Shown here piece by piece: positions 16,052 through 63,708 of a stretch of DNA of 64,000 bases. The position numbers and the translations under genes were made by a program. Positions within the stretch are counted from its first letter, which is position 1. Every line of letters starts with the position of its first letter. The notes under the pieces are model-generated. The model was not told the origin of the DNA. It ran no database searches and saw only the letters and a list, made by a program, of their open reading frames with translations. Source of the stretch: Hydrogenivirga caldilitoris (lineage in GTDB: Bacteria > Aquificota > Aquificia > Aquificales > Aquificaceae). Where the stretch lies: NCBI RefSeq assembly GCF_003664005.1, contig NZ_RCCJ01000001.1, positions 1,612,001 to 1,676,000 of the forward strand, in the 5' to 3' direction.

Positions 16052-17431
16052 TTATACACTTATCAGGGAGATACCAGACCTAACCAGCTCTTCAAGCTCT
16101 CCTTCGGAAGGGGCTTCAGCGTAAACACGGATAAGGGGTTCGGTTCCAGAGGCTCTGAAGAGGAGCCAGCTCTCGTCTCCAAAAACCAGTTTGAGCCCAT
16201 CTATAGTTATCGTCCTCACCACCTGTTTCCCACCAACAACCGAGGGCGGTTTTTCTATCAGCTCCGTGAGTTTCTTCTTCACGGTTTCGTCCGCAGCAAA
16301 GTCAACCCTTCTGTAATAAGCTGTGCCATATGTGTCAAAAACTTCCCTGATTATCTCCGAAAAGGGCTTATCTTTCAAGAGTAAGAGCTCCAGTATAAAG
16401 AGAGCAGACATCAGACCGTCTCTCTCAGGTAGAAATGAGGGTATACCGTAGCCCCCGCTCTCCTCCCCACCAAATATCACCTTTTCCTTCAGTATCAGCT
16501 CATTTATGTTTTTAAAACCAACGGGAACCTCTCTAAGTTCTATACCCTCAGACCTGCAAATCCTGTCAGCCAGGTAGGTTGTGGAGACAGTCTTTACAAC
16601 TAATCCGTCTCTAATATTTTTGTGTTTAATAAGGTGAAGAAGCAGGAGGGCATATACGAGCTGCGCGTTGACAAAGTTTCCCTTTTCGTCCACAAGGGCG
16701 ATCCTGTCTCCGTCTCCATCGTTGGCGACACCGATAGCTGCTCCCACAGCTCTGACCTTCTCCATGAGAGCTCTTAAATTCTTCTCAACAGGCTCTGGCG
16801 CACGTCCTCCAAAGAGAGGGTCTCTGTAACCCCTGAGGTTAACCACCTCAGCCATGGTTCCCTCAAGAGCCTTTGCCAAAAGTCCAGAGGATGTACCATA
16901 CATCGCGTCATGGACTATTCTGAAGGGTCTTTCCTTAAAAAGTTCAAAATTTACCTGTTCCCTAACCTTTAGAAGGTAATCTTTTTCTACGTTAACTTCC
17001 TCAAGAGCCACCTCTGGAACCGGTTCTCCATCTACTTCTTTTGCTTTTTCCTCAACTTCTCTCACAAAGCTGGGAGTGGCTGAACCCCCAAAGCTCTCCT
17101 TTATCTTGTATCCGTTGTACTGAGGAGGGTTGTGGGATGCTGTTATCATAACCCCGTTATCAAAACCCATATACTTGACCGCAAAGGATACCATTGGTGT
17201 GGTGCAGGCTTTGTCTACAAGCTTGACCTCAAAACCTTCTGCTTTGAAAATCTTATACGTTTCCCTTGCAAAGAACTCGGAGGAAAACCTCCAGTCGTAA
17301 CCTATGACCACTTTTCTGAGACCTTTCCTCTTGAGGACCTCAGCGTGAGCCTTAGCCACCCTCCTTACGTTTTCATAGGTAAAGGTGTCCCCTATTACAG
17401 CCCTCCAACCATCGGTGCCGAATTTTATCAT
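16052..17431 (-). CDS. Phosphoglucomutase/phosphomannomutase family phosphohexomutase
   Basis: A 459-residue alpha-D-phosphohexomutase. The catalytic serine loop is TASHNPPQYNGYK (about residue 100), the metal loop is DGDGDRIA, the sugar loop is GGEESGGYG, and the C-terminal phosphate loop is RASGTEPLIRVY. Such enzymes interconvert hexose 1- and 6-phosphates for glycan precursors; substrate (glucose, mannose or glucosamine) cannot be told here. It is followed by metK 33 nt later. A TAAAAT box lies 6 nt before the ATG, and the divergent neighbour starts only 15 nt away. Confidence 0.9.
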   Translation of the reverse strand: MIKFGTDGWRAVIGDTFTYENVRRVAKAHAEVLKRKGLRKVVIGYDWRFSSEFFARETYKIFKAEGFEVKLVDKACTTPMVSFAVKYMGFDNGVMITASHNPPQYNGYKIKESFGGSATPSFVREVEEKAKEVDGEPVPEVALEEVNVEKDYLLKVREQVNFELFKERPFRIVHDAMYGTSSGLLAKALEGTMAEVVNLRGYRDPLFGGRAPEPVEKNLRALMEKVRAVGAAIGVANDGDGDRIALVDEKGNFVNAQLVYALLLLHLIKHKNIRDGLVVKTVSTTYLADRICRSEGIELREVPVGFKNINELILKEKVIFGGEESGGYGIPSFLPERDGLMSALFILELLLLKDKPFSEIIREVFDTYGTAYYRRVDFAADETVKKKLTELIEKPPSVVGGKQVVRTITIDGLKLVFGDESWLLFRASGTEPLIRVYAEAPSEGELEELVRSGISLISV

Positions 17432-17446
17432 GTAATAATTTTACCC

Positions 17447-18604
17447 ATGAGTAACTATTTAACTCTGCTCCTTGTAGCAGCTTTTGTTTCTATAAGCGTA
17501 TATGAAGGACTTGTAATAGTTGGCATAATATATTCTTTCTTTAAAAGACGTTTTCACTTCTGGGGAGATCTTAGATTCCCTTTGATTGGATTCATATCTT
17601 CAACTATCGTTCCCACCGCTGTCTTTTTCCCGAATATGCTTCTAAAAAGTTTAAATGAAGGGTTATTCCAGGTGGTCTATTTTATTAGACCAAACAGTCC
17701 ACGAAAAATTATAATCAAACTTCCCTTTTTGCTCGTTTTTTTAGGTATTATAGGGCTTCCTGTAGTCCTATATAATGTGCTTTTCAAAGAAAGTGTAAAA
17801 CTTTTTTGGGGAGGCTCTTTTGAAGTGGCTTCCTTCTACACAACATTTGGTTTTTGCTCCTTTATAATAGGGTTTTATAACCTTAATAAAGAGAAAAAGC
17901 TCTCTACCAGTTCCATATTTTTCTTTGTTTTGGGATTACTATTTTTTAGTATCGTTATCTATTCTGCCAGAAGGTCCTATTTAATAGGTATACCTGTAGT
18001 ATTTTTACTCTTAAACTTTACACTCGCCAAATACAGACTTCTTAATAAGAAAGTTTTTTTAGCTGGTCTCTCTGTACTGTTCCTTGGAAGTGCCATCGCT
18101 TACACTTATCTGTCAACCAAAGACTACCGATTTCAAACGTTCAATGAAATCCTTTTAGGCAAGAGGAGCCTTGATTATGAAACCCTTAACAGGATAAGTA
18201 GCTCAAGGTACGGCATAATGCTTGATGGCATTGAAATTATAAAGACAGATATCAAAGAGAGAAGGGTTTTAAATCTCCTGCTTGGTCATGGGATAAGGTC
18301 CGGTGCTTATCTTCCCCATAAGAGAAGCCCACAGAATTGGCAACGATATGAATCGGTTATATTTGTATCAGAGTTCATAGAGAGAGGTGTGGTCGGGTTA
18401 CTTTCCATTCTGGCAATTTACTTTATAGCATTCAAAAGGTTTTTAGAAACAAAATTAGAAAATTCTGAAGATATTTTAGTCCTGGCTGGATTTATACCGC
18501 TTTTAATTCACTTGATAGGGTCCATTTTTACCTTCTTCTGGGATGCTTTGCTACCCCTATTCTTATTACTATTTAAATTCAGTGAAGCAGCAACAGAAAG
18601 GTAA
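17447..18604 (+). CDS. O-antigen ligase / polymerase-like polytopic membrane protein
   Basis: A 385-residue, very hydrophobic protein with about ten membrane helices. The region with SSRYGIMLDGIEII followed by LLGHGIRSG recalls the large periplasmic loop of WaaL/Wzy-type ligases (an Arg plus a GHG-like turn). The reading frame is open far upstream, but that part is antisense to the phosphohexomutase; the ATG at 17447 is the credible start. Base composition is AT-rich compared with metK and nuo, like the other glycan genes here. Substrate is unknown; the family call is by pattern only. Confidence 0.7.
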   Translation: MSNYLTLLLVAAFVSISVYEGLVIVGIIYSFFKRRFHFWGDLRFPLIGFISSTIVPTAVFFPNMLLKSLNEGLFQVVYFIRPNSPRKIIIKLPFLLVFLGIIGLPVVLYNVLFKESVKLFWGGSFEVASFYTTFGFCSFIIGFYNLNKEKKLSTSSIFFFVLGLLFFSIVIYSARRSYLIGIPVVFLLLNFTLAKYRLLNKKVFLAGLSVLFLGSAIAYTYLSTKDYRFQTFNEILLGKRSLDYETLNRISSSRYGIMLDGIEIIKTDIKERRVLNLLLGHGIRSGAYLPHKRSPQNWQRYESVIFVSEFIERGVVGLLSILAIYFIAFKRFLETKLENSEDILVLAGFIPLLIHLIGSIFTFFWDALLPLFLLLFKFSEAATER

Positions 18605-18640
18605 GTACTATAAAAATGTTAGGTTTGTTAGACATCCTGG

Positions 18641-19510
18641 TTAGTGGTTTGACATATAATATGCAAACCTATCAAGACGGATACCCCACTTTAATACGTT
18701 AATTAGGTTGCGCGAGTTCAACACAATGGTGGGTTTTTTAAATAGAGCCCTTAAAACGAGTTTCCAGCCAGTAGGCAAGTTTCCAAACCGTAGACATATA
18801 GAAGCAATATGAAAAGTGAACTCTGGAAGATACTCTTTGGGAATTTTATCTCTATAGTCGTGAAAAAGTCTCAGAGTTGAAAGCATAAACCTTATGTTCT
18901 TGCTGGTTCTCCCTCCATGCTCTCTTACCATAACTTTCCTGTTGTCTAGAACCCTGATTTTTTTCCCGTTTAAATAAGATCTAATATAAAATTCCCAATC
19001 CTCTCTCGGTATGTACTCATCTCTGTATTTTAAGAAGCTTGCTTTCTTTACAGATGTTGCTGAAGGGTATCCTATTAAAGAGTTAAAAATGATAGCCTCA
19101 ATAGTTTTAGGAATAGGTTTCTTAGACACTCTAACTAACGCACTTTCCGAATTTATAAAGTCTCTCGGTATGGAATAGACTATATCAAAGCCTTTCTCCA
19201 ATTCTTCCAACGATTCCTCTATGTAGGTGTCCCTCCATTCGTCATCATAGTCAAGAAAGAAAATGTACTCTCCCTTTGATAATTCAACACCTTTGTTCCG
19301 TGAATAAGCTCGTTCCATATTCTCAGGATTTCGCACATATACAACTTCTCCTGAAAAATTCTTCACTATTTCAGGAGTTTTGTCTTCGGAGGCATCATCT
19401 ACAACTATGACTTCCAATGGTTTAATGCTTTGCTTAAGAGCAGACTCTATAGCTTTTTCTATATATTTCTCACCGTTGTATACGGGAATTACTACACTCA
19501 CCTTCCCCAT
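18641..19510 (-). CDS. Glycosyltransferase family 2
   Basis: A 289-residue cytoplasmic transferase of GT-A fold. It has the nucleotide-sugar pocket VSVVIPVYNGEKYIEKAIESAL and VVDDASEDKT, and the metal-binding acidic motif in FFLDYDDEW. It probably adds a sugar during LPS or capsule assembly. It overlaps the upstream glycosyltransferase by 13 nt. Its 3' end converges with the ligase-like gene, 36 nt away, with no clear terminator. Substrate cannot be inferred. Confidence 0.85.
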   Translation of the reverse strand: MGKVSVVIPVYNGEKYIEKAIESALKQSIKPLEVIVVDDASEDKTPEIVKNFSGEVVYVRNPENMERAYSRNKGVELSKGEYIFFLDYDDEWRDTYIEESLEELEKGFDIVYSIPRDFINSESALVRVSKKPIPKTIEAIIFNSLIGYPSATSVKKASFLKYRDEYIPREDWEFYIRSYLNGKKIRVLDNRKVMVREHGGRTSKNIRFMLSTLRLFHDYRDKIPKEYLPEFTFHIASICLRFGNLPTGWKLVLRALFKKPTIVLNSRNLINVLKWGIRLDRFAYYMSNH

Positions 19511-20280
19511 AAGTTTTTTCCTTCTTTTTCTTTCATTTCAAGTTCAAACAAAAACGCATACTTTAAGAAAGTGTAAAAGGAAGCCATGAATGAAATAATA
19601 ATCCCTCTATATCCTTCTAAAAATGCCCTTTTAAAGAATAACTCTCTGAAAAATGCCCAAAATGGCCTAAATACAATATCAACAGCAGAGACCTTTTTCC
19701 CTTTACTATACTTCACTACAGCTGCATCTATAGCAAAGCTTATACCCTTTTCTGCTTGATGTCTAAGGCTCCTATAGGAGTAATGATATATGTCTCCTTC
19801 CAGTTTAGCGATATTTTCGCTTTTAATTTTCAAAAACTCATGAGGTTCGCTTTCCCATATAGGATCAACTTCTTTCCTAACAAGTCTTAGCCTCCACTCA
19901 GGTTGCCAGGCATATTTCAAAAATTTCCCAAGATAGTACGTCCGCCTGTTTATCAGATAGCCCTCTGCTTTAGGGTTTTTCAGTTCCTCAATAATAGACC
20001 TCCTTAGCTCTTCAGAAACCACCTCATCGGCATCCAAGAAAAGCACCCACTCCTGAGTACATTTCTCTAGAGCCGAATTCTTTTGAGCTGCGTATCCCTT
20101 CCACTCCTCTATATAGACCTTAGCTCCATAAGACTCCGCTATTTCTCGGGTTCTGTCTGTAGAGCCCGAGTCCACAACTACTATCTCCGAAGCTATATCT
20201 TTAACGGACTCAAGAGTCTTTCCTATTATGTCTTCTTCGTTGTAAGTGATAATAGCCACAGATAACGTAAACCTATTCAT
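19498..20280 (-). CDS. Glycosyltransferase family 2, LPS-core (WaaE/KdtX-like) type
   Basis: About 260 residues. The N-terminal half is GT2: SVAIITYNEEDIIGKTLESV, VVDSGSTDRT and VLFLDADE (the DxD-like motif). A hydrophobic segment near the C-terminus may attach it to the membrane. The WaaE/KdtX group of LPS-core transferases has this look. A TTG two codons upstream also opens the frame, but the ATG at 20280 is preferred. It overlaps the aminotransferase stop by 8 nt. Confidence 0.85.
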   Translation of the reverse strand: MNRFTLSVAIITYNEEDIIGKTLESVKDIASEIVVVDSGSTDRTREIAESYGAKVYIEEWKGYAAQKNSALEKCTQEWVLFLDADEVVSEELRRSIIEELKNPKAEGYLINRRTYYLGKFLKYAWQPEWRLRLVRKEVDPIWESEPHEFLKIKSENIAKLEGDIYHYSYRSLRHQAEKGISFAIDAAVVKYSKGKKVSAVDIVFRPFWAFFRELFFKRAFLEGYRGIIISFMASFYTFLKYAFLFELEMKEKEGKNLWGR

Positions 20281-21415
20281 ATCCAAGCCCGGCTGAGATA
20301 GCCTCTAAATAGGCTCCCACACTACTACCAAACTCTACCCTATACCCAAGTCTTTTCAAGGCAATTTCCAGAACGGATAGCACCACAGGCATATCTGTTA
20401 TATCCATACCCATATGGGAGATTCGGAAAATCCTCCCCTTCAACTTTCCCTGTCCTCCTGCAACCCTGACCCCGAGCTTTAACATTTCCTTCCTAAGAGC
20501 TTCAGAGCTTATATCCTCAGGTTTAACGGTCGTTAAAGAAATTGATGGATTTTTCGGAAAGATGCTCAGCCCGAGAGTTTCCATTGCTCTCTCCATTCCC
20601 TTGGATATAAGCCTGTATCTGCTTTCTACTTTATCCATACCTTCTTCAAGAAGTATAAGTAATGCTTCCCTAAGCCCAAGTATGAGACTTATAGCCGGAG
20701 TAAATGCCGTCTGGCCTTCGGTCTGTTTTTTTAATTCCTCCCGAACATTAAAATAATAAGCTCTGTCAGTAAGCTGACTTTTTGCTCTTTCTGAAAACCA
20801 GAGCATGGACAATCCCGGAGGAAGCATGAAAGCTTTTTGAGAACCACTCACAAGAACATCAACCCCCCACTCATGGGGCTTTATGCTGTAAACACCAAGG
20901 GCCGTAATTGCGTCAACTACAAGCAGAGCATCAGAGTCTCTTGTTATATCTGCAAGGGCTTTAATATCGTGATATACGCCCGTAGAGGTTTCAGAAGCCT
21001 GAACGAGAACTCCTTTAGTGTCTGGATTCTCTTTAAGGAGTCTCTCAACTGCCTCAGGGTCTACACTTTTACCCCACTCAACCTCTAATTCTACAACTTT
21101 CAGCTTCCATCTCTTCCCCAGCTCCACCCACCTTTCACCGAATTTCCCTCCGACCACCGCTATTACCTTGTCCCCTTCTTCAAAGAAGTTAAGAACAGAA
21201 GCCTCCATCGCTCCTGTCCCAGAAGAGGCAAAGAAAACGAAGTTGTCCTCTTTACAATCAACAAGCTGTTTAAATAACTCCCTCGTTTCCAAGAAAGCTT
21301 CCGTGAATTCAGGAGTCCTGTGATGTATTATCTGCCTTCCGAGAACTTCCCTTATGCGGTCGGGAATCTCAACTGGACCAGGAGTAAATATCCTTTCTCC
21401 TTTAAAAGGTTTCAT
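20273..21415 (-). CDS. Class V pyridoxal-phosphate aminotransferase (alanine-glyoxylate/serine type)
   Basis: A 380-residue fold-type I PLP enzyme. It starts with the family motif FTPGPVEIPDRI. ASSGTGAMEAS binds the cofactor phosphate, VVDAITALGV carries the PLP-contacting Asp, and GSQKAFMLPPG carries the Schiff-base lysine (about residue 193). Close relatives are called serine-pyruvate or alanine-glyoxylate aminotransferase; some Aquificales use this family for serine/glycine metabolism. The exact substrate is not decided by the sequence. It is divergent from the GT4 gene across 27 nt, with a TATAGA box 8 nt before its ATG. Confidence 0.88.
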   Translation of the reverse strand: MKPFKGERIFTPGPVEIPDRIREVLGRQIIHHRTPEFTEAFLETRELFKQLVDCKEDNFVFFASSGTGAMEASVLNFFEEGDKVIAVVGGKFGERWVELGKRWKLKVVELEVEWGKSVDPEAVERLLKENPDTKGVLVQASETSTGVYHDIKALADITRDSDALLVVDAITALGVYSIKPHEWGVDVLVSGSQKAFMLPPGLSMLWFSERAKSQLTDRAYYFNVREELKKQTEGQTAFTPAISLILGLREALLILLEEGMDKVESRYRLISKGMERAMETLGLSIFPKNPSISLTTVKPEDISSEALRKEMLKLGVRVAGGQGKLKGRIFRISHMGMDITDMPVVLSVLEIALKRLGYRVEFGSSVGAYLEAISAGLGYE

Positions 21416-21442
21416 AACAGAGTTCTATAATATATCACACTA

Positions 21443-22543
21443 ATGGGGGCGGAAGATAAGATAATCATTTATTTACCAACTCCCTTACCTGGTGGTGCCT
21501 TCAACTCAGCGATGCTCCTCGCAGAAGGTTTGAGCAGAGAAGGATTCAAAGTGAAATTTGTAGCTAACAGGAAGGGAAAAATGGAACTCCCATCGGATAC
21601 TGTATATTTAAACGCCGGTGATTTTATACGACCTTTTAAGCTTAAGACTATAATAGAGCAGGAAAAACCCTTAGCTGTTTTTTCAAACATGTTGCCACAA
21701 AATGTCACTCTCTCTATATCCAAATTGCTTCTACCTAAAAACCTCTCATCAACCATAAAATTTATAGGCTTTTCAAGGAATTCTTCTTCTAGAATAAGGA
21801 GAGGGCAATGGTACAAACTTCCCTATAGACTGTTTATAAAAAAACTATACGAAAATCTTGATTATATAATAGCTGTCTCTGACTCTGTAAAAATTGATTT
21901 AATGAAAGCCTTTTTTATAAAGGAGGAAAAAATCAAGGTCATACATAACCCGCTCAAGCATACAGAAATTTTCAAGAAGAAAAGGGAACCTTTAGAGAAG
22001 GTATATGAAGATTTTTTTTCAAAAGGTAAGATTATCATAAACACTTCACGATTCGCTAAGCAGAAAAGACTGGATTTGTTGATCAAAGCTTTTAAAAAAA
22101 TTTCTAAAGTAAGGGAGGATGTAAGGCTCGTTTTAGTGGGTTCTGGGGAGGAGGAAAATAACTTAAGAAAACTTGTAGAAAACCTAGGATTAAAAGACAA
22201 GGTTTTATTTATACCTTTTTCACCGAATCCTTTTAAATACATACATAGGGCAGATGTTTTTGTACTAACCTCTCAAGATGAAGGTTTTGGTCGCGTGGTA
22301 ATGGAAAGTCTCGCTTGTGGCACTCCAGTTGTGGCTTACAAGAATGAATTTTGCGATCATTCCAGTATAATTACTGATGGATATAACGGTTTTCAGGTAC
22401 CTTTTGGAGATGAAGATGCTTTGGTAGATAAAGTTCTTATATACTTGTCCAAGGATAAAAAGAAAGTCGCTTGCAATTGTGTTTTATCTACGAAAAAGTT
22501 TTCGCTTAGAAGAATAACTTGTAAGATCTTGGAGTTGATATGA
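21443..22543 (+). CDS. Glycosyltransferase family 4
   Basis: A 366-residue GT-B fold transferase. The N-terminal acceptor domain begins LPTPLPGGAFNSAMLLAEGL. The C-terminal donor domain shows INTSRFAKQKRLDLLIKAF, LVLVGSGEEE and the GT4 E-x7-E region (SQDEGFGRVVMESLACGTPVV). Composition is AT-rich. TATAAT lies 11 nt before the ATG and there is no ribosome site. Its stop overlaps the next gene (ATGA), so the two are coupled. Confidence 0.88.
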   Translation: MGAEDKIIIYLPTPLPGGAFNSAMLLAEGLSREGFKVKFVANRKGKMELPSDTVYLNAGDFIRPFKLKTIIEQEKPLAVFSNMLPQNVTLSISKLLLPKNLSSTIKFIGFSRNSSSRIRRGQWYKLPYRLFIKKLYENLDYIIAVSDSVKIDLMKAFFIKEEKIKVIHNPLKHTEIFKKKREPLEKVYEDFFSKGKIIINTSRFAKQKRLDLLIKAFKKISKVREDVRLVLVGSGEEENNLRKLVENLGLKDKVLFIPFSPNPFKYIHRADVFVLTSQDEGFGRVVMESLACGTPVVAYKNEFCDHSSIITDGYNGFQVPFGDEDALVDKVLIYLSKDKKKVACNCVLSTKKFSLRRITCKILELI

Positions 22544-23904
22544 AACTGTTAGCCGTTTTTCTTACGGTGCTTTGTTTTATATCCCTCATACCGAACATAG
22601 GTAATTACCAGTTCAGGGGTGAAGAAGCTCTTAGAACGATGGTTGCCTATGAGATGGACAAAAGCGGGAACTTAATGCAACCTACTTTGCTTGGAGAACC
22701 GTATTATAACAAACCACCGCTGTTCAACTGGCTTATATTATTAAGCTCAAAGTTTATACCTTGGTCTGAGCTCACAGCACGGGCCGTAACGCTTACATCA
22801 CTGTTACTGACGCTCATTATTATTTATACGTCTAGCCGAGTGCTTGTGAAAAATGAGCCTGGTGTGGCGTATTTAGCACCTCTCGTATTTATAAGTTTCT
22901 CTGATGTCTTATTCTGGTACGGATACCTGGCAGAGATAGATATTACCCTAACTATGTTTAACAGCTTAGCCTTATTTTTGCTTTATGTAGGCTTTGAAAG
23001 TAATAGAACAATATTCATTGTGGCTGTAGGAATTGTTATCGGACTTTCCTTTTTACTCAAAGGACTTCCTTCATACGGTCTGTGGCTAATCAGTTGCACT
23101 GCGTTGCTTATCATATATAGAAATAAACTTAATAATAAAGTTCTTATAAGTATACTAGTTGCAAGCTTAATAGCTTTAATAATCCCTGCCCTTTGGCTTT
23201 TAAATACTAATGACCCGATTTTTTACATTAAAAAGCTATTTAGCGAAACTGTATCAAAAGTAAAAGGTCAGTCTGGAGTCATAGATTATTTAAAACATCT
23301 GTTTATGTATCCCGTTATCAATTTTAAACAACTTTTGCCTACGAGCATATTCGTGATATATATGGTCTTTAGAGGGAATCGTAGATTACCAAGAGAGCTG
23401 AGAATATTGCTGTTTATATGTTTACTGAACTATTTACCCTACTTGTTATCTGCTGAAGGTAAAGGAAGATATGTACTTCCTTTGTTCCCGTTGTTGGCTG
23501 TAGTATTTTCCTACTTGGTATTACAGAATAAGAAGTATTTAAAGCCATTAATTTTGACTATATTTGTGCTTGCTGTATTCAGGATACTGTTCGGTTTTTG
23601 GGCTTTACCTTTATTGGAAAAACAGAGGGGACCTATCAAGGAGAGCGCTTATAAGATACACTCTATCGTAGGATACGAAGATAGAATTGCCTGTGAGTGT
23701 AAAACAGATGAAAGGAAGGCTGTATGCCTCTACTTGGATTTTCTCAGGAAAGATTTTCTTAAAACTGCTCGGCTAACTCCAGATTGGAAATATTTAGTAT
23801 CGTGCGAACCTAAACATAAGCTCAAAGAAGTCCTGAATTTCCATATAAGGAAAGATGATTACGTATTTCTGTATCTTAGACAACCTCTAACCCCGAAAAG
23901 ATAA
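22540..23904 (+). CDS. ArnT/PMT-like membrane glycosyltransferase (GT-C, GT39/GT83-like)
   Basis: A 454-residue membrane protein. After the first helix comes the family's catalytic acidic loop (FRGEEALRTMVAYEMDKSGN) followed by PYYNKPPLFNWL, both typical of polyprenyl-phosphate-sugar transferases such as ArnT. It probably moves a sugar from an undecaprenyl carrier onto lipid A, a glycan or a protein outside the inner membrane. It is somewhat shorter than ArnT (about 550). Its end overlaps ndk on the opposite strand by 29 bp. Confidence 0.82.
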   Translation: MKLLAVFLTVLCFISLIPNIGNYQFRGEEALRTMVAYEMDKSGNLMQPTLLGEPYYNKPPLFNWLILLSSKFIPWSELTARAVTLTSLLLTLIIIYTSSRVLVKNEPGVAYLAPLVFISFSDVLFWYGYLAEIDITLTMFNSLALFLLYVGFESNRTIFIVAVGIVIGLSFLLKGLPSYGLWLISCTALLIIYRNKLNNKVLISILVASLIALIIPALWLLNTNDPIFYIKKLFSETVSKVKGQSGVIDYLKHLFMYPVINFKQLLPTSIFVIYMVFRGNRRLPRELRILLFICLLNYLPYLLSAEGKGRYVLPLFPLLAVVFSYLVLQNKKYLKPLILTIFVLAVFRILFGFWALPLLEKQRGPIKESAYKIHSIVGYEDRIACECKTDERKAVCLYLDFLRKDFLKTARLTPDWKYLVSCEPKHKLKEVLNFHIRKDDYVFLYLRQPLTPKR

Positions 23905-24298
23905 AGGGTATTTCGTAGCTTGCGGACTCTTCAGAGTCGGAGGCGTGGATGGCGTTCTTACCTTTGTCTGTTCCGAAGAGAGCTCTCACGGAGTTGGGAG
24001 CAACCTTCCTTGCCTCTTCGCTGTCGGTGGGACCTATTATCTCCCGAACTCTCTGAATAGCGTTCTCTCCCTCCAATATCGCCGCCACCACTGGACCCGA
24101 AGTCATAAACTCAACGAGCTCGCCGTAAAAGGGTCTGTCCTTATGGACTATGTAAAACTGCTTTGCTTGCTCTTCGGTAAATCTTAACATCTTGAGGGCT
24201 TTAATCTCAAAACCTTCCTCTATGAACCTGTCAAGTATCTTTCCTGTAGCCTTCTTTTGGACGGCATCGGGCTTGATTATTATCAGCGTTCTTTGCAT
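23876..24298 (-). CDS. ndk: Nucleoside diphosphate kinase
   Basis: A 140-residue enzyme that transfers the gamma-phosphate between NTPs and NDPs through a phosphohistidine. The N-terminus MQRTLIIIKPDAVQK and the active-site NAIHASDSEESA (His about 117) are diagnostic. The ATG at 24298 has GGAGG upstream. It follows atpH by 5 nt, so it is probably co-transcribed with the ATP synthase stalk genes. It converges with, and overlaps, the ArnT-like gene. Confidence 0.97.
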   Translation of the reverse strand: MQRTLIIIKPDAVQKKATGKILDRFIEEGFEIKALKMLRFTEEQAKQFYIVHKDRPFYGELVEFMTSGPVVAAILEGENAIQRVREIIGPTDSEEARKVAPNSVRALFGTDKGKNAIHASDSEESASYEIPFIFSGLEVV

Positions 24299-60512: not shown

Positions 60513-60869
60513 ATGAAGTGGAAAAGAGAGCTCAAGGAACTTCTTAACATACCCGAGGAGGCAGAAATAATAACAAGACCTTACTATAGAGATATCCCAA
60601 AGAGAAGTGGGAAAAAATACAAAGCCCTTACGGTCCAGTACGTACACAAAGGTAGAAAGAAGTATAAACACATAAGCAAGGAGAAGGAGGTACTTATAAA
60701 CCAGGTTTTAAACAATGAGGACGCTATCCTTGAGTATGTATCCTGCAAGATTAGGGAGTTAAAAAATTTCTTAGATAGCATACCTGACGAGAAAACTAAG
60801 AAGAACTTGATGCCCCTGTATAGGGAGATAGACCGACTGCTCACAAAAATATCTGTAGGTATCCTTTGA
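60513..60869 (+). CDS. Hypothetical basic protein, 118 residues
   Basis: Not recognised. It is lysine/tyrosine-rich in the first 55 residues (RPYYRDIPKRSGKKYKALTV, HKGRKKYKHISKEKE) and helical after that. The first part has a loose resemblance to small DUF6788-like proteins (an aromatic strand plus RKKY..ISKE), which is not enough for a call. The basic stretch could bind nucleic acid. It starts 2 nt after the hotdog gene and ends at the edge of the origin-like region. Confidence 0.55.
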   Translation: MKWKRELKELLNIPEEAEIITRPYYRDIPKRSGKKYKALTVQYVHKGRKKYKHISKEKEVLINQVLNNEDAILEYVSCKIRELKNFLDSIPDEKTKKNLMPLYREIDRLLTKISVGIL

Positions 60870-60963
60870 CATACACTTCCCTACTTATCCTTTCCCTTAA
60901 GTATGTATCTAAGTTAAGTTAAATATTAATAGGGAGACCAACTTGAATATGATTATTTAGATA

Positions 60964-61209
60964 TATCAATAACTTATGTAACAACTTTCCACATTATGGC
61001 TTGAATATGCTGGAATATAAACAACTTGAGTGTGATTAATATGCACAGCTTTATGAATAACTTACCATCTTTCCACATTCTGGCTAAATTTTCTACATAT
61101 ACCAATAACTTATTTACTTTATATATGCGTACAGTTATCAATAACTTATGAATTTATCCACATTTATCCACACACTGTATTGTTTATTCTGATTTATCAA
61201 TAACTTATG
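60964..61209 (+). repeat. Five direct repeats of TATCAATAACTTATG
   Basis: Exact at 60964-60978, 61136-61150 and 61195-61209; variants at 61052-61066 (TATGAATAACTTACC) and 61100-61114 (TACCAATAACTTATT). Two copies are followed by CTTTCCACATT and TGGCT, making a larger composite unit (60964-61001 and 61052-61085). Confidence 0.85.
61154..61172 (+). promoter_or_regulatory. Two tandem perfect DnaA boxes
   Basis: TTATCCACA at 61154-61162 and again at 61164-61172, starts 10 bp apart, so on the same helix face. Confidence 0.75.
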
Positions 61210-61292
61210 TGTGTAAAATATGTATAGAGTTTTCAAGTACTTACAATCTTTCCACATTTCGGGGGGGTATTTTTGAGGCTTTTCTTAAAAAA

Positions 61293-61356
61293 TGTGGATA
61301 TATTGTGGATAAAATGTGGAAACTTTGTGGATAAATTGTGGAAAACTTGTGGAAGA
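61293..61356 (-). promoter_or_regulatory. Array of six DnaA-box-like sites, 11-bp period
   Basis: On the plus strand: TGTGGATAT 61293, TGTGGATAA 61304, TGTGGAAAC 61315, TGTGGATAA 61326, TGTGGAAAA 61337, TGTGGAAGA 61348. Two are perfect complements of TTATCCACA. The spacing is exactly 11 each time, suited to a cooperative DnaA filament. The array ends 5 bp before a TAAAAT -10 of the next gene. Confidence 0.75.
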
Positions 61357-61372
61357 ATTTTAAAATTTAATT

Positions 61373-62725
61373 ATGTCTGTGAAGGTTCTTATAGTTGATG
61401 ACGAGGAGGGTATAAGGGACTCTCTATCGGAGATACTGAAGGAGGAAGGGTACAGGGTTAGTTCAGCCTCAACTTTATCTGAAGCTAAGCAAAGGATAAC
61501 TGAGGAGTTCTTTCATGTGGTGGTGCTTGATGTCTGGATGCCGGATGGGGATGGTATTGATTTTATAGAGGTTTTGAAAGAGCTGTCTCCTGATACGGTT
61601 GTTGTTGTTATAACTGGGCATGGCAACGTTGAAATGGCCGTGAGAGCTATAAGGAATGGAGCTTATGACTTTATAGAGAAACCTTTCTCTATGGACAGGT
61701 TCCTTATAACGGTTAAACACGCTTCCTCAGAAGCTTTAAGTAGACGGGTCAGAGAATCGGAGGAGCAAATAGAGTTAATAGGGAACTCAAAGAGGATCAG
61801 GGAAATTAAGGAGATGATTCCAAAGATAGCCAAAAGTAAGGCTCCTGTTCTAATACTTGGAGAAAGCGGCACGGGTAAAGAACTCGTGGCAAGACTTATC
61901 CACAGATACTCTGGAAGAGCTGGGCAGTTTGTTGACATAAACTGTGCATCTATTCCGAACGACCTCATAGAGTCTGAGCTTTTCGGTTATGAGAAAGGAG
62001 CCTTCACGGGGGCAGTTAGTAGAAAGAAGGGAAAGTTTGAACTTGCTGACGGTGGCACTCTATTCCTTGATGAGATAGGAGATATGGAACTCCGGGCACA
62101 GGCAAAGTTATTGAGGGTTATAGAGACAGGAAGTTTCACCAGGCTTGGAAGTACTCAGAAAATAGATATTGATGTGAGGATAGTATCCGCATCCAATAAA
62201 GACATACTTTCTGAAGTACATGAGGGGCAATTCAGGGAAGACCTTTATTACAGAATTGCCGTTTTTACTATAGAGCTGCCTCCATTAAGGGAAAGGGGTG
62301 AAGATATAATACTCCTCGCGGAATACTTCCTAAACAAATTTGCCTCAGAATATAAAAAGGAGTGTAAGGTTTTTTCCGACGAAGCTAAGGAAGTCTTGTT
62401 GAAACACAGGTGGAAGGGCAATGTAAGGGAGTTACGTAACCTGATTGAGAGGATAGTTATACTGTGCGATAAGGAGGTTATAAAACCTGAACATATAGGT
62501 GGTGTGTTTACAAAGAGCTCAAAGGATTACAGTTACATATTCAAACTTGATAGCTTTAGAGAAGCTCGGAAGGAGTTTGAGAAGACGTATATAGAGGAGA
62601 AATTGAAAGAATATAACTATGACATGAAAGAGGTAGCCTCTAATATAGGTATTGATTTATCAAACTTATACCGTAAAGTTAAAGCTTACGGCATAAAGCT
62701 CAAGAACCTGCAAGGTTCACTATAA
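61373..62725 (+). CDS. NtrC-family sigma-54 response regulator
   Basis: 450 residues. The receiver domain ([18 protein letters not shown], phospho-Asp in [12 protein letters not shown] about residue 53, KPF lysine) is followed by an AAA+ domain (Walker [15 protein letters not shown] loop as [10 protein letters not shown], Walker B LFLDEIGD) and a Fis-like HTH ([20 protein letters not shown]). It activates sigma-54 promoters. The style is that of NtrX and of the NtrC4 of Aquifex. No partner kinase gene is adjacent. TAAAAT lies 6 nt before the ATG, directly after the DnaA-box array. Confidence 0.93.
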
Positions 62726-63435: not shown

Positions 63436-63708
63436 TTACTTTATGCTGTCTCTGAGGTCTTTGGCAGGTTTAAAAGCTACAACCTTCCTGGCAGGTATCT
63501 GGATAACCTGACCAGTCCTGGGGTTCCTGCCCTTCCTGGCAGCCCTCTTCTTAACGGTGAATATACCCAGCCCAGGAATGGCGATCCTCTCGCCCTTCTT
63601 CAGGGCTTTGGATATAGCTCCGACGGCTGCCTTGAGAGCAGCATCCGCCTCTTTCTTGGTGATGCCCGCCTGCTTGGCGACCTCTGCAACAAGCTCTGCC
63701 TTTGTCAT
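63436..63708 (-). CDS. hup: DNA-binding protein HU
   Basis: 90 residues. The dimer helix region (MTKAELVAEVAKQAGITKKE), GERIAIPGLGIFTVKKRAAR and the DNA-clasping arm GRNPRTGQVIQIPARKVVAF are diagnostic; IHF is less likely. It is an abundant nucleoid protein. GGGAGGG precedes the ATG. Confidence 0.96.
   Translation of the reverse strand: MTKAELVAEVAKQAGITKKEADAALKAAVGAISKALKKGERIAIPGLGIFTVKKRAARKGRNPRTGQVIQIPARKVVAFKPAKDLRDSIK

Follow-up and report, generated by a model that had tools for sequence, protein, structure and literature searches.

A probable chromosomal replication origin far from dnaA in Hydrogenivirga caldilitoris, with phased DnaA boxes and IHF-like sites that are conserved among relatives

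Background

The chromosomal origin (oriC) of Escherichia coli lies away from dnaA and contains two opposed groups of DnaA boxes, a primary IHF site (in addition to a secondary one, IBS2) and an AT-rich unwinding region at one end. Bending by IHF brings the single-stranded duplex-unwinding element (DUE) to DnaA, and the consensus of the IHF site is given as TAAnnnnTTGATW / WATCAANNNNTTR (PMC10380432). The basal unwinding system (BUS) of the Bacillus type requires, by definition, at least three DnaA-trios no more than 16 bp away from a DnaA box (PMC8287927). For a thermophile, Thermotoga maritima, the accessible parts of the sources describe boxes clustered in both orientations together with an AT-rich unwinding element (PMC10316083); the five boxes conform to a different 12-bp sequence, AAACCTACCACC (PMC6669920), and no IHF-like array is described in those parts (PMC10316083, PMC6669920).

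The locus presented here, from the thermophile Hydrogenivirga caldilitoris, shares with the E. coli origin the distance from dnaA, the opposed box groups, IHF-consensus sites and the AT-rich unwinding region at one end. It differs from that origin in having seven IHF-like sites in a fixed lattice of 36, 48, 52 and 59 bp and in having reversed boxes that form a perfect 11-bp array. It has in common with T. maritima the clustering of boxes in both orientations and the AT-rich element, but not the box sequence. An oriC far from dnaA is thus of a known kind, whereas the phased lattice and its conservation appear to be undescribed in the literature searched, which was mostly outside the subscription journals. 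The Aquificae are among the lineages whose composition does not betray the origin, and within the same literature (without the DoriC tables) no described oriC was found for them. As the DoriC tables were outside this scope, the origin may already be listed among automatic database predictions.

Results

The window that was analyzed, 64,000 nucleotides in length, comprises bases 1,612,001-1,676,000 of the single-contig genome of H. caldilitoris (1,753,429 bases). It contains a 503-bp gap with a GC content of 28%, situated between a conserved gene for a 118-aa protein of unassigned function (left) and the gene for an NtrC-type response regulator (right), in a neighborhood of housekeeping genes (transketolase, thyX, RsmE-like and HU; Table 1). 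The initial annotation had proposed this gap to be an origin on the basis of at least eight good DnaA boxes in AT-rich DNA, among them two perfect ones 10 bp apart and six in inverse orientation with an exact 11-bp period (two of them perfect), with a G7 tract in between. All of these elements were recovered, and the number of boxes proved higher: 13 when one mismatch to TTWTCCACA is allowed, against a mean of 0.53 and a maximum of 4 in 1000 dinucleotide-preserving shuffles. The assertion that six phased sites exceed chance was confirmed as well, as the longest run in 11-bp steps within these shuffles was 1. Exact TTWTCCACA occurs 52 times in the genome, and five of these occurrences fall here within 192 bp (the boxes lie at genome positions 1,672,985-1,673,356). 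An equally dense cluster at another place would have counted against the initial annotation; in a genome-wide search with TTWTCCACA no other cluster of such density was present in the 1.753-Mb genome.

Table 1. Features of the proposed origin and its flanks (positions within the window)
Feature	Position	Strand	Remarks
118-aa protein, no family assigned	60513..60869	+	left flank of the proposed origin
Proposed oriC	60870..61372	.	intergenic; unique DnaA-box cluster and skew change point in the same kilobase; kept in congeners
Candidate DUE, AT-rich left flank	60898..60963	.	
IHF-like site 1, TATCAATAACTTA	60964..60976	+	
Forward DnaA box 1, CTTTCCACA	60985..60993	+	next box follows at 84 bp, a conserved spacing
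IHF-like site 2, TATAAACAACTTG	61016..61028	+	2 mismatches to TATCAANNNCTTA, 1 to WATCAANNNNTTR
IHF-like site 3, TATGAATAACTTA	61052..61064	+	36 bp after site 2
Forward DnaA box 2, CTTTCCACA	61069..61077	+	
IHF-like site 4, TACCAATAACTTA	61100..61112	+	
IHF-like site 5, TATCAATAACTTA	61136..61148	+	36 bp after site 4
Forward DnaA box 3a, TTATCCACA	61154..61162	+	perfect; 85 bp after box 2
Forward DnaA box 3b, TTATCCACA	61164..61172	+	perfect; 10 bp after box 3a
IHF-like site 6, TATCAATAACTTA	61195..61207	+	
IHF-like site 7, TTTCAAGTACTTA	61231..61243	+	36 bp after site 6
Forward DnaA box 4, CTTTCCACA	61248..61256	+	84 bp after box 3b
G7 tract	61261..61267	+	separates forward boxes from reversed array
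Six reversed DnaA boxes, exact 11-bp period	61293..61356	-	starts 61293, 61304, 61315, 61326, 61337, 61348; 61304 and 61326 are perfect TTATCCACA, 61337 is TTTTCCACA
NtrC/NtrX-type sigma-54 response regulator gene	61373..62725	+	adjoins reversed array; synteny shared by congeners, not by G019
HU gene	63436..63708	-	2 kb right of the proposed origin; candidate DNA-bending partner

As had been noted before, dnaA is not adjacent. It is found at 685.7 kb of 1753 kb, roughly 110 kb away from the site's antipode (796 kb), and the gene (L001 559-1782, genome ~685 kb) is closer to the terminus than to the proposed origin. The best PDB matches of the encoded protein are 1l8q/3r8f and 2hcb (1l8q being the closest), which we take to be the DnaA of Aquifex aeolicus; the part corresponding to domains I-II is short, the AAA+ match beginning near residue 85, and the boxes used are canonical. 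No credible parS-like or dif-like sites were found.

The strand asymmetry was evaluated on stretches that together make up 47% of the genome and that cover the section 1,592-1,753 kb completely. The model was fitted to fourfold-degenerate third positions and had separate rates for genes on the plus and minus strand and two change points in T/A. By maximum likelihood, these change points were placed at 1,673-1,674 kb (around 61-62 kb of the window) and at ~770 kb, the second one close to the antipode of the site. The gain in log-likelihood was 133, versus a maximum of 18.6 in 100 permutations of the gene positions; support within two units spans 1,672-1,677 kb on a 1-kb grid, and the 5-95% interval of gene bootstraps lies at the grid points 1,670-1,680 kb. 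The strand-corrected T/A skew therefore puts the gap at a switch between leading and lagging strand. An excess of T marks the strand leading away from the site, which fits the finding that leading strands are G+T-rich in most bacteria (PMC4070872), and both the 16S rRNA gene (1,720.6 kb, plus strand) and the L14 gene (49.3 kb, plus strand) are oriented away from the site. The original expectation of a skew minimum near 61.2 kb thus holds for the corrected T/A change and fails for raw GC skew, which does not mark the site (the cumulative minimum within the window lies near 27 kb) because it is dominated by gene direction. Raw gene-strand counts were too noisy for placing an origin, and fourfold G/C skew yielded no useful change point (gain 17.7, at other places). 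A separate stretch (L079 1-15000, genome 1,735-1,750 kb) stands out by the unusual strength of its skew on either gene strand (GC skew of +0.156) and is possibly an island or recently inserted DNA.

Local tests in relatives were weaker. On a 125-kb contig of the congener G010 the best single change point was found at 61.0 kb, versus boxes at 61.8 kb (gain 26.9; permutation maximum 26.3, 95% point 20.8), and in the Persephonella-like G039 at 1,613 kb, versus boxes at 1,611.7 kb (gain 25.8; permutation maximum 28.4, 95% point 17.7). The relative G019 gave no skew signal above permutation, which agrees with the listing of A. aeolicus as one of the chromosomes whose replication-dependent skew is smallest (PMC2099444); for the Aquificae no clear strand trend was reported (PMC4070872).

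Two elements of the gap had gone unrecorded in the initial annotation, namely the additional forward boxes at intervals of ~84 bp and seven IHF-like sites of the form TATCAANNNCTTA at 60964-61243, spaced 52-36-48-36-59-36. This form satisfies the IHF consensus, and the 503-bp region contains three exact matches to WATCAANNNNTTR and four with one mismatch, on a background of 0.029 exact matches per kb. Position 10, a cytosine, is conserved more strictly than the consensus demands. The forward boxes are spaced 84-85-10-84 bp, where 84 bp corresponds to eight turns at 10.5 bp, and a forward box follows an IHF-like site at 17, 18 or 21 bp in 32 of the 35 cases counted. Within each 36-bp pair, the second site is preceded by a further conserved element, ~AATATGnnCAG (61039, 61123 and 61218 in the window), which is likewise seen in congeners; a known binding protein was not recognized for it. 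When the 36-bp pair alone was used as a query and the DnaA boxes were ignored, the 503-bp locus was the sole match in the genome and all matches with at most two mismatches in congeners were at the orthologous locus; the same search did not find the pair at the origins of other genera.

The arrangement is conserved in related species, in position or in structure. All seven sites have the identical spacing in G012, G016 and G005, and in G010 and G002 the spacing is identical at those sites that can still be recognized. In G004 a single insertion of 10 bp, which brings in a further DnaA box, lengthens the 52 to 62, in G006 the lattice reads 51-36-47-36-58-36, each long interval being one base shorter, and G011 has a 46 where others have a 36; some of the larger length changes are whole helical turns. 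A rigid seven-site template scored 20-24 of 28 in six genomes (that of H. caldilitoris included), with a maximum of 4 in 200 shuffles. The sequence between the lattice sites diverges among the species, while the spacing is kept. Similarly, six congeners have the same forward-box spacing (some with extra boxes in between), and the reversed array and the AT-rich left flanks, which can be aligned, are retained in congeners; the segment equivalent to the G7 tract is G-rich in several of them, not in all. The relative G019 has a cluster of the same kind beside a rimP-like gene and a methyltransferase gene, with forward boxes at 84, 10, 83 and 10 bp despite the different neighbors. Two other members of the genus, G007 and G013 (L016 1-500, L017 1-620), have a different layout, in which one IHF-like site is flanked by two 11-bp arrays of opposed orientation; it may be another form of the origin or belong to another replicon.

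The left flank of the boxes is AT-rich and easily melted, considering that 60898-60997 is the least stable 100-bp stretch of the whole 64 kb, and on balance we favor it as the unwinding element. It includes AATATTAATAG-GGAG at 60922-60936, which on the minus strand reads CTA-TTA-ATA-TTT after a G+C-rich spacer and is, judged from its sequence, an eroded DnaA-trio-like element. In our strict test a DnaA box had to be followed within 16 bp by at least three CTA or TTA triplets in register, which is more stringent than the published 3'-NAN-5' (PMC8287927). No such module is present in the window: the trio stretch has no box within 16 bp, so that the locus falls outside the definition of a BUS, and a DnaA-trio proper was rejected. 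Modules that pass are found in G019, G039, G028 and G010, lying in G019 and G010 in the same left flank, whereas none of 580 background windows passed. An origin-like region of G028 (L094 6377-6656), a genome that lacks the TATCAANNNCTTA lattice and encodes just one HU, contains 15 DnaA boxes, most of them at 11-bp intervals, with CTA(TTA)5 trios after them. From the few cases at hand, genomes with one gene of the DNABII (HU/IHF) family seem to lack the lattice, G030 being an exception the other way.

The H. caldilitoris genome encodes three DNABII proteins: the HU near the proposed origin, one directly after a gene with an S1 domain and one at 152.7 kb. Near-complete genomes of the Aquificaceae have 2-5 such genes, mostly three. 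The two extra proteins score higher with IHF than with HU models, yet below the curated cut-offs, and in a DNABII tree they do not group with proteobacterial IHF-alpha or IHF-beta. We do not claim them as such, the model scores being a hint that the tree does not support. Given these scores and this placement, the TATCAANNNCTTA sites are likely bound by a protein of the HU/IHF family rather than by IHF proper.

The basic 118-aa protein encoded at the left has no match in Pfam or NCBIfam and is confined to the genus among the 41 genomes searched, being present in 8 of 17 genomes of the genus (that of H. caldilitoris included) and in none of 24 relatives outside it. In the loci examined its gene is located left of the origin, and it is possibly an origin-linked protein. 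Elsewhere in the window (17000-24000) a stretch of low GC content (37-42%), with genes for glycosyltransferase-like and membrane proteins beside the ATP synthase genes, is likely a cluster for a surface polysaccharide.

Discussion

The DnaA boxes of the 503-bp region form a dense cluster that greatly exceeds chance expectation and has no equal in the chromosome, the T/A strand switch falls in the same kilobase and the phased arrangement is conserved. Judged from these sequence data, the region is almost certainly the chromosomal oriC, at a large distance from dnaA, as the initial annotation had suggested. A locus for the titration or reactivation of DnaA would share some of these properties, as DnaA boxes and IHF-like sites are combined in datA and DARS2 of E. 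coli (PMC10380432). Such loci are separate from the origin, however, and the cluster lies within ~1 kb of the replication-strand change point. Moreover, as it is the only one in the genome, the true origin would then have none, and an AT-rich unstable flank is present, all of which makes a datA-like or DARS2-like identity highly improbable. Another reading would see in the cluster a DnaA-controlled promoter region of the NtrC-type gene, devoid of origin function; the reversed array ends 17 bp upstream of the ATG of this gene, their synteny is kept within the genus and DnaA regulates some genes elsewhere. The different neighbors in G019, however, imply that the cluster does not belong to the ntrC-type gene. 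Promoter-like matches are no more frequent than in shuffles, and the coincidence with the skew switch also argues against a mere promoter, which we therefore deem very unlikely; a secondary regulatory role for the NtrC-type gene is possible.

The repeats further call to mind plasmid iteron origins with IHF sites, which combine direct repeats, IHF-type bending and an AT-rich region. The direct repeats and the AT-rich region are found here as well, IHF-type bending is proposed below, and iteron-like repeats are typical of plasmid origins, which could suggest the origin of an integrated plasmid or phage. Nevertheless, the repeated site is the canonical DnaA box, a plasmid initiator gene is absent nearby, housekeeping genes flank the region, congeners have it at the same place and the chromosomal skew switches at the site, so this provenance is exceedingly improbable. 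Less remote, if still rather unlikely, is the case in which the region is oriC and the TATCAANNNCTTA sites have DnaA itself or some other protein as their ligand, in place of an HU/IHF-family bender. The conserved cytosine, the extra element within each pair and the uncertain IHF identity of the two additional paralogs point in that direction. Against it, the sites fit TAAnnnnTTGATW, the variable middle bases, the helical phasing and the 36-bp pairs are what adjacent benders would need, and the genome encodes several DNABII paralogs. With these alternatives weighed, an oriC with a phased arrangement of DnaA boxes and IHF-like sites, for which a bending mechanism is proposed, is the best overall explanation, and we hold it with high confidence.

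The mechanism itself is somewhat more conjectural, although we lean towards a phased array bent by HU/IHF-family proteins. The high-affinity doublet at 61154/61164 and the reversed array, with its six head-to-tail boxes in 11-bp steps, would serve as nucleation sites for DnaA, while HU/IHF-family dimers would occupy the TATCAANNNCTTA sites as pairs with a 36-bp spacing and so introduce bends. As the forward boxes are 84-85 bp apart, around eight helical turns, each bend may show a DnaA box on the same face. In this way some 300 bp could fold up compactly, and the resulting complex would carry the DnaA filaments to the AT-rich left flank; the flank would melt, be held single-stranded by DnaA in the manner of the ssDUE recruitment of E. 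coli, and then allow the helicase to be loaded. Such an E. coli-like route, in which bends fold the origin and DnaA reaches the unwinding region at the left, is in our opinion the most economical one.

Considering the trio modules in relatives, it is conceivable, albeit tentative, that within the genus the origin moved from a DnaA-trio (BUS) mode to a mode in which a lattice bent by HU/IHF-family proteins serves as scaffold. The trio mode would then still be visible in Aquifex- and Persephonella-like relatives, and the scaffold would enable distant boxes, together with the reversed array, to act on the unwinding element. If true, a bent-lattice origin would exist beyond Proteobacteria, Nitrospirae and Nitrospinae, the phyla to which a conserved IHF is attributed (PMC10316083). 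For a lineage in which composition is of little help, the result is a site-specific, testable origin whose species-conserved lattice makes it a natural substrate for structural work on the DnaA of A. aeolicus. It also offers a testable spacing rule (84/85/36 bp, with length changes in whole turns) and is relevant to how origins of such dissimilar layout arrive at the same unwinding step.
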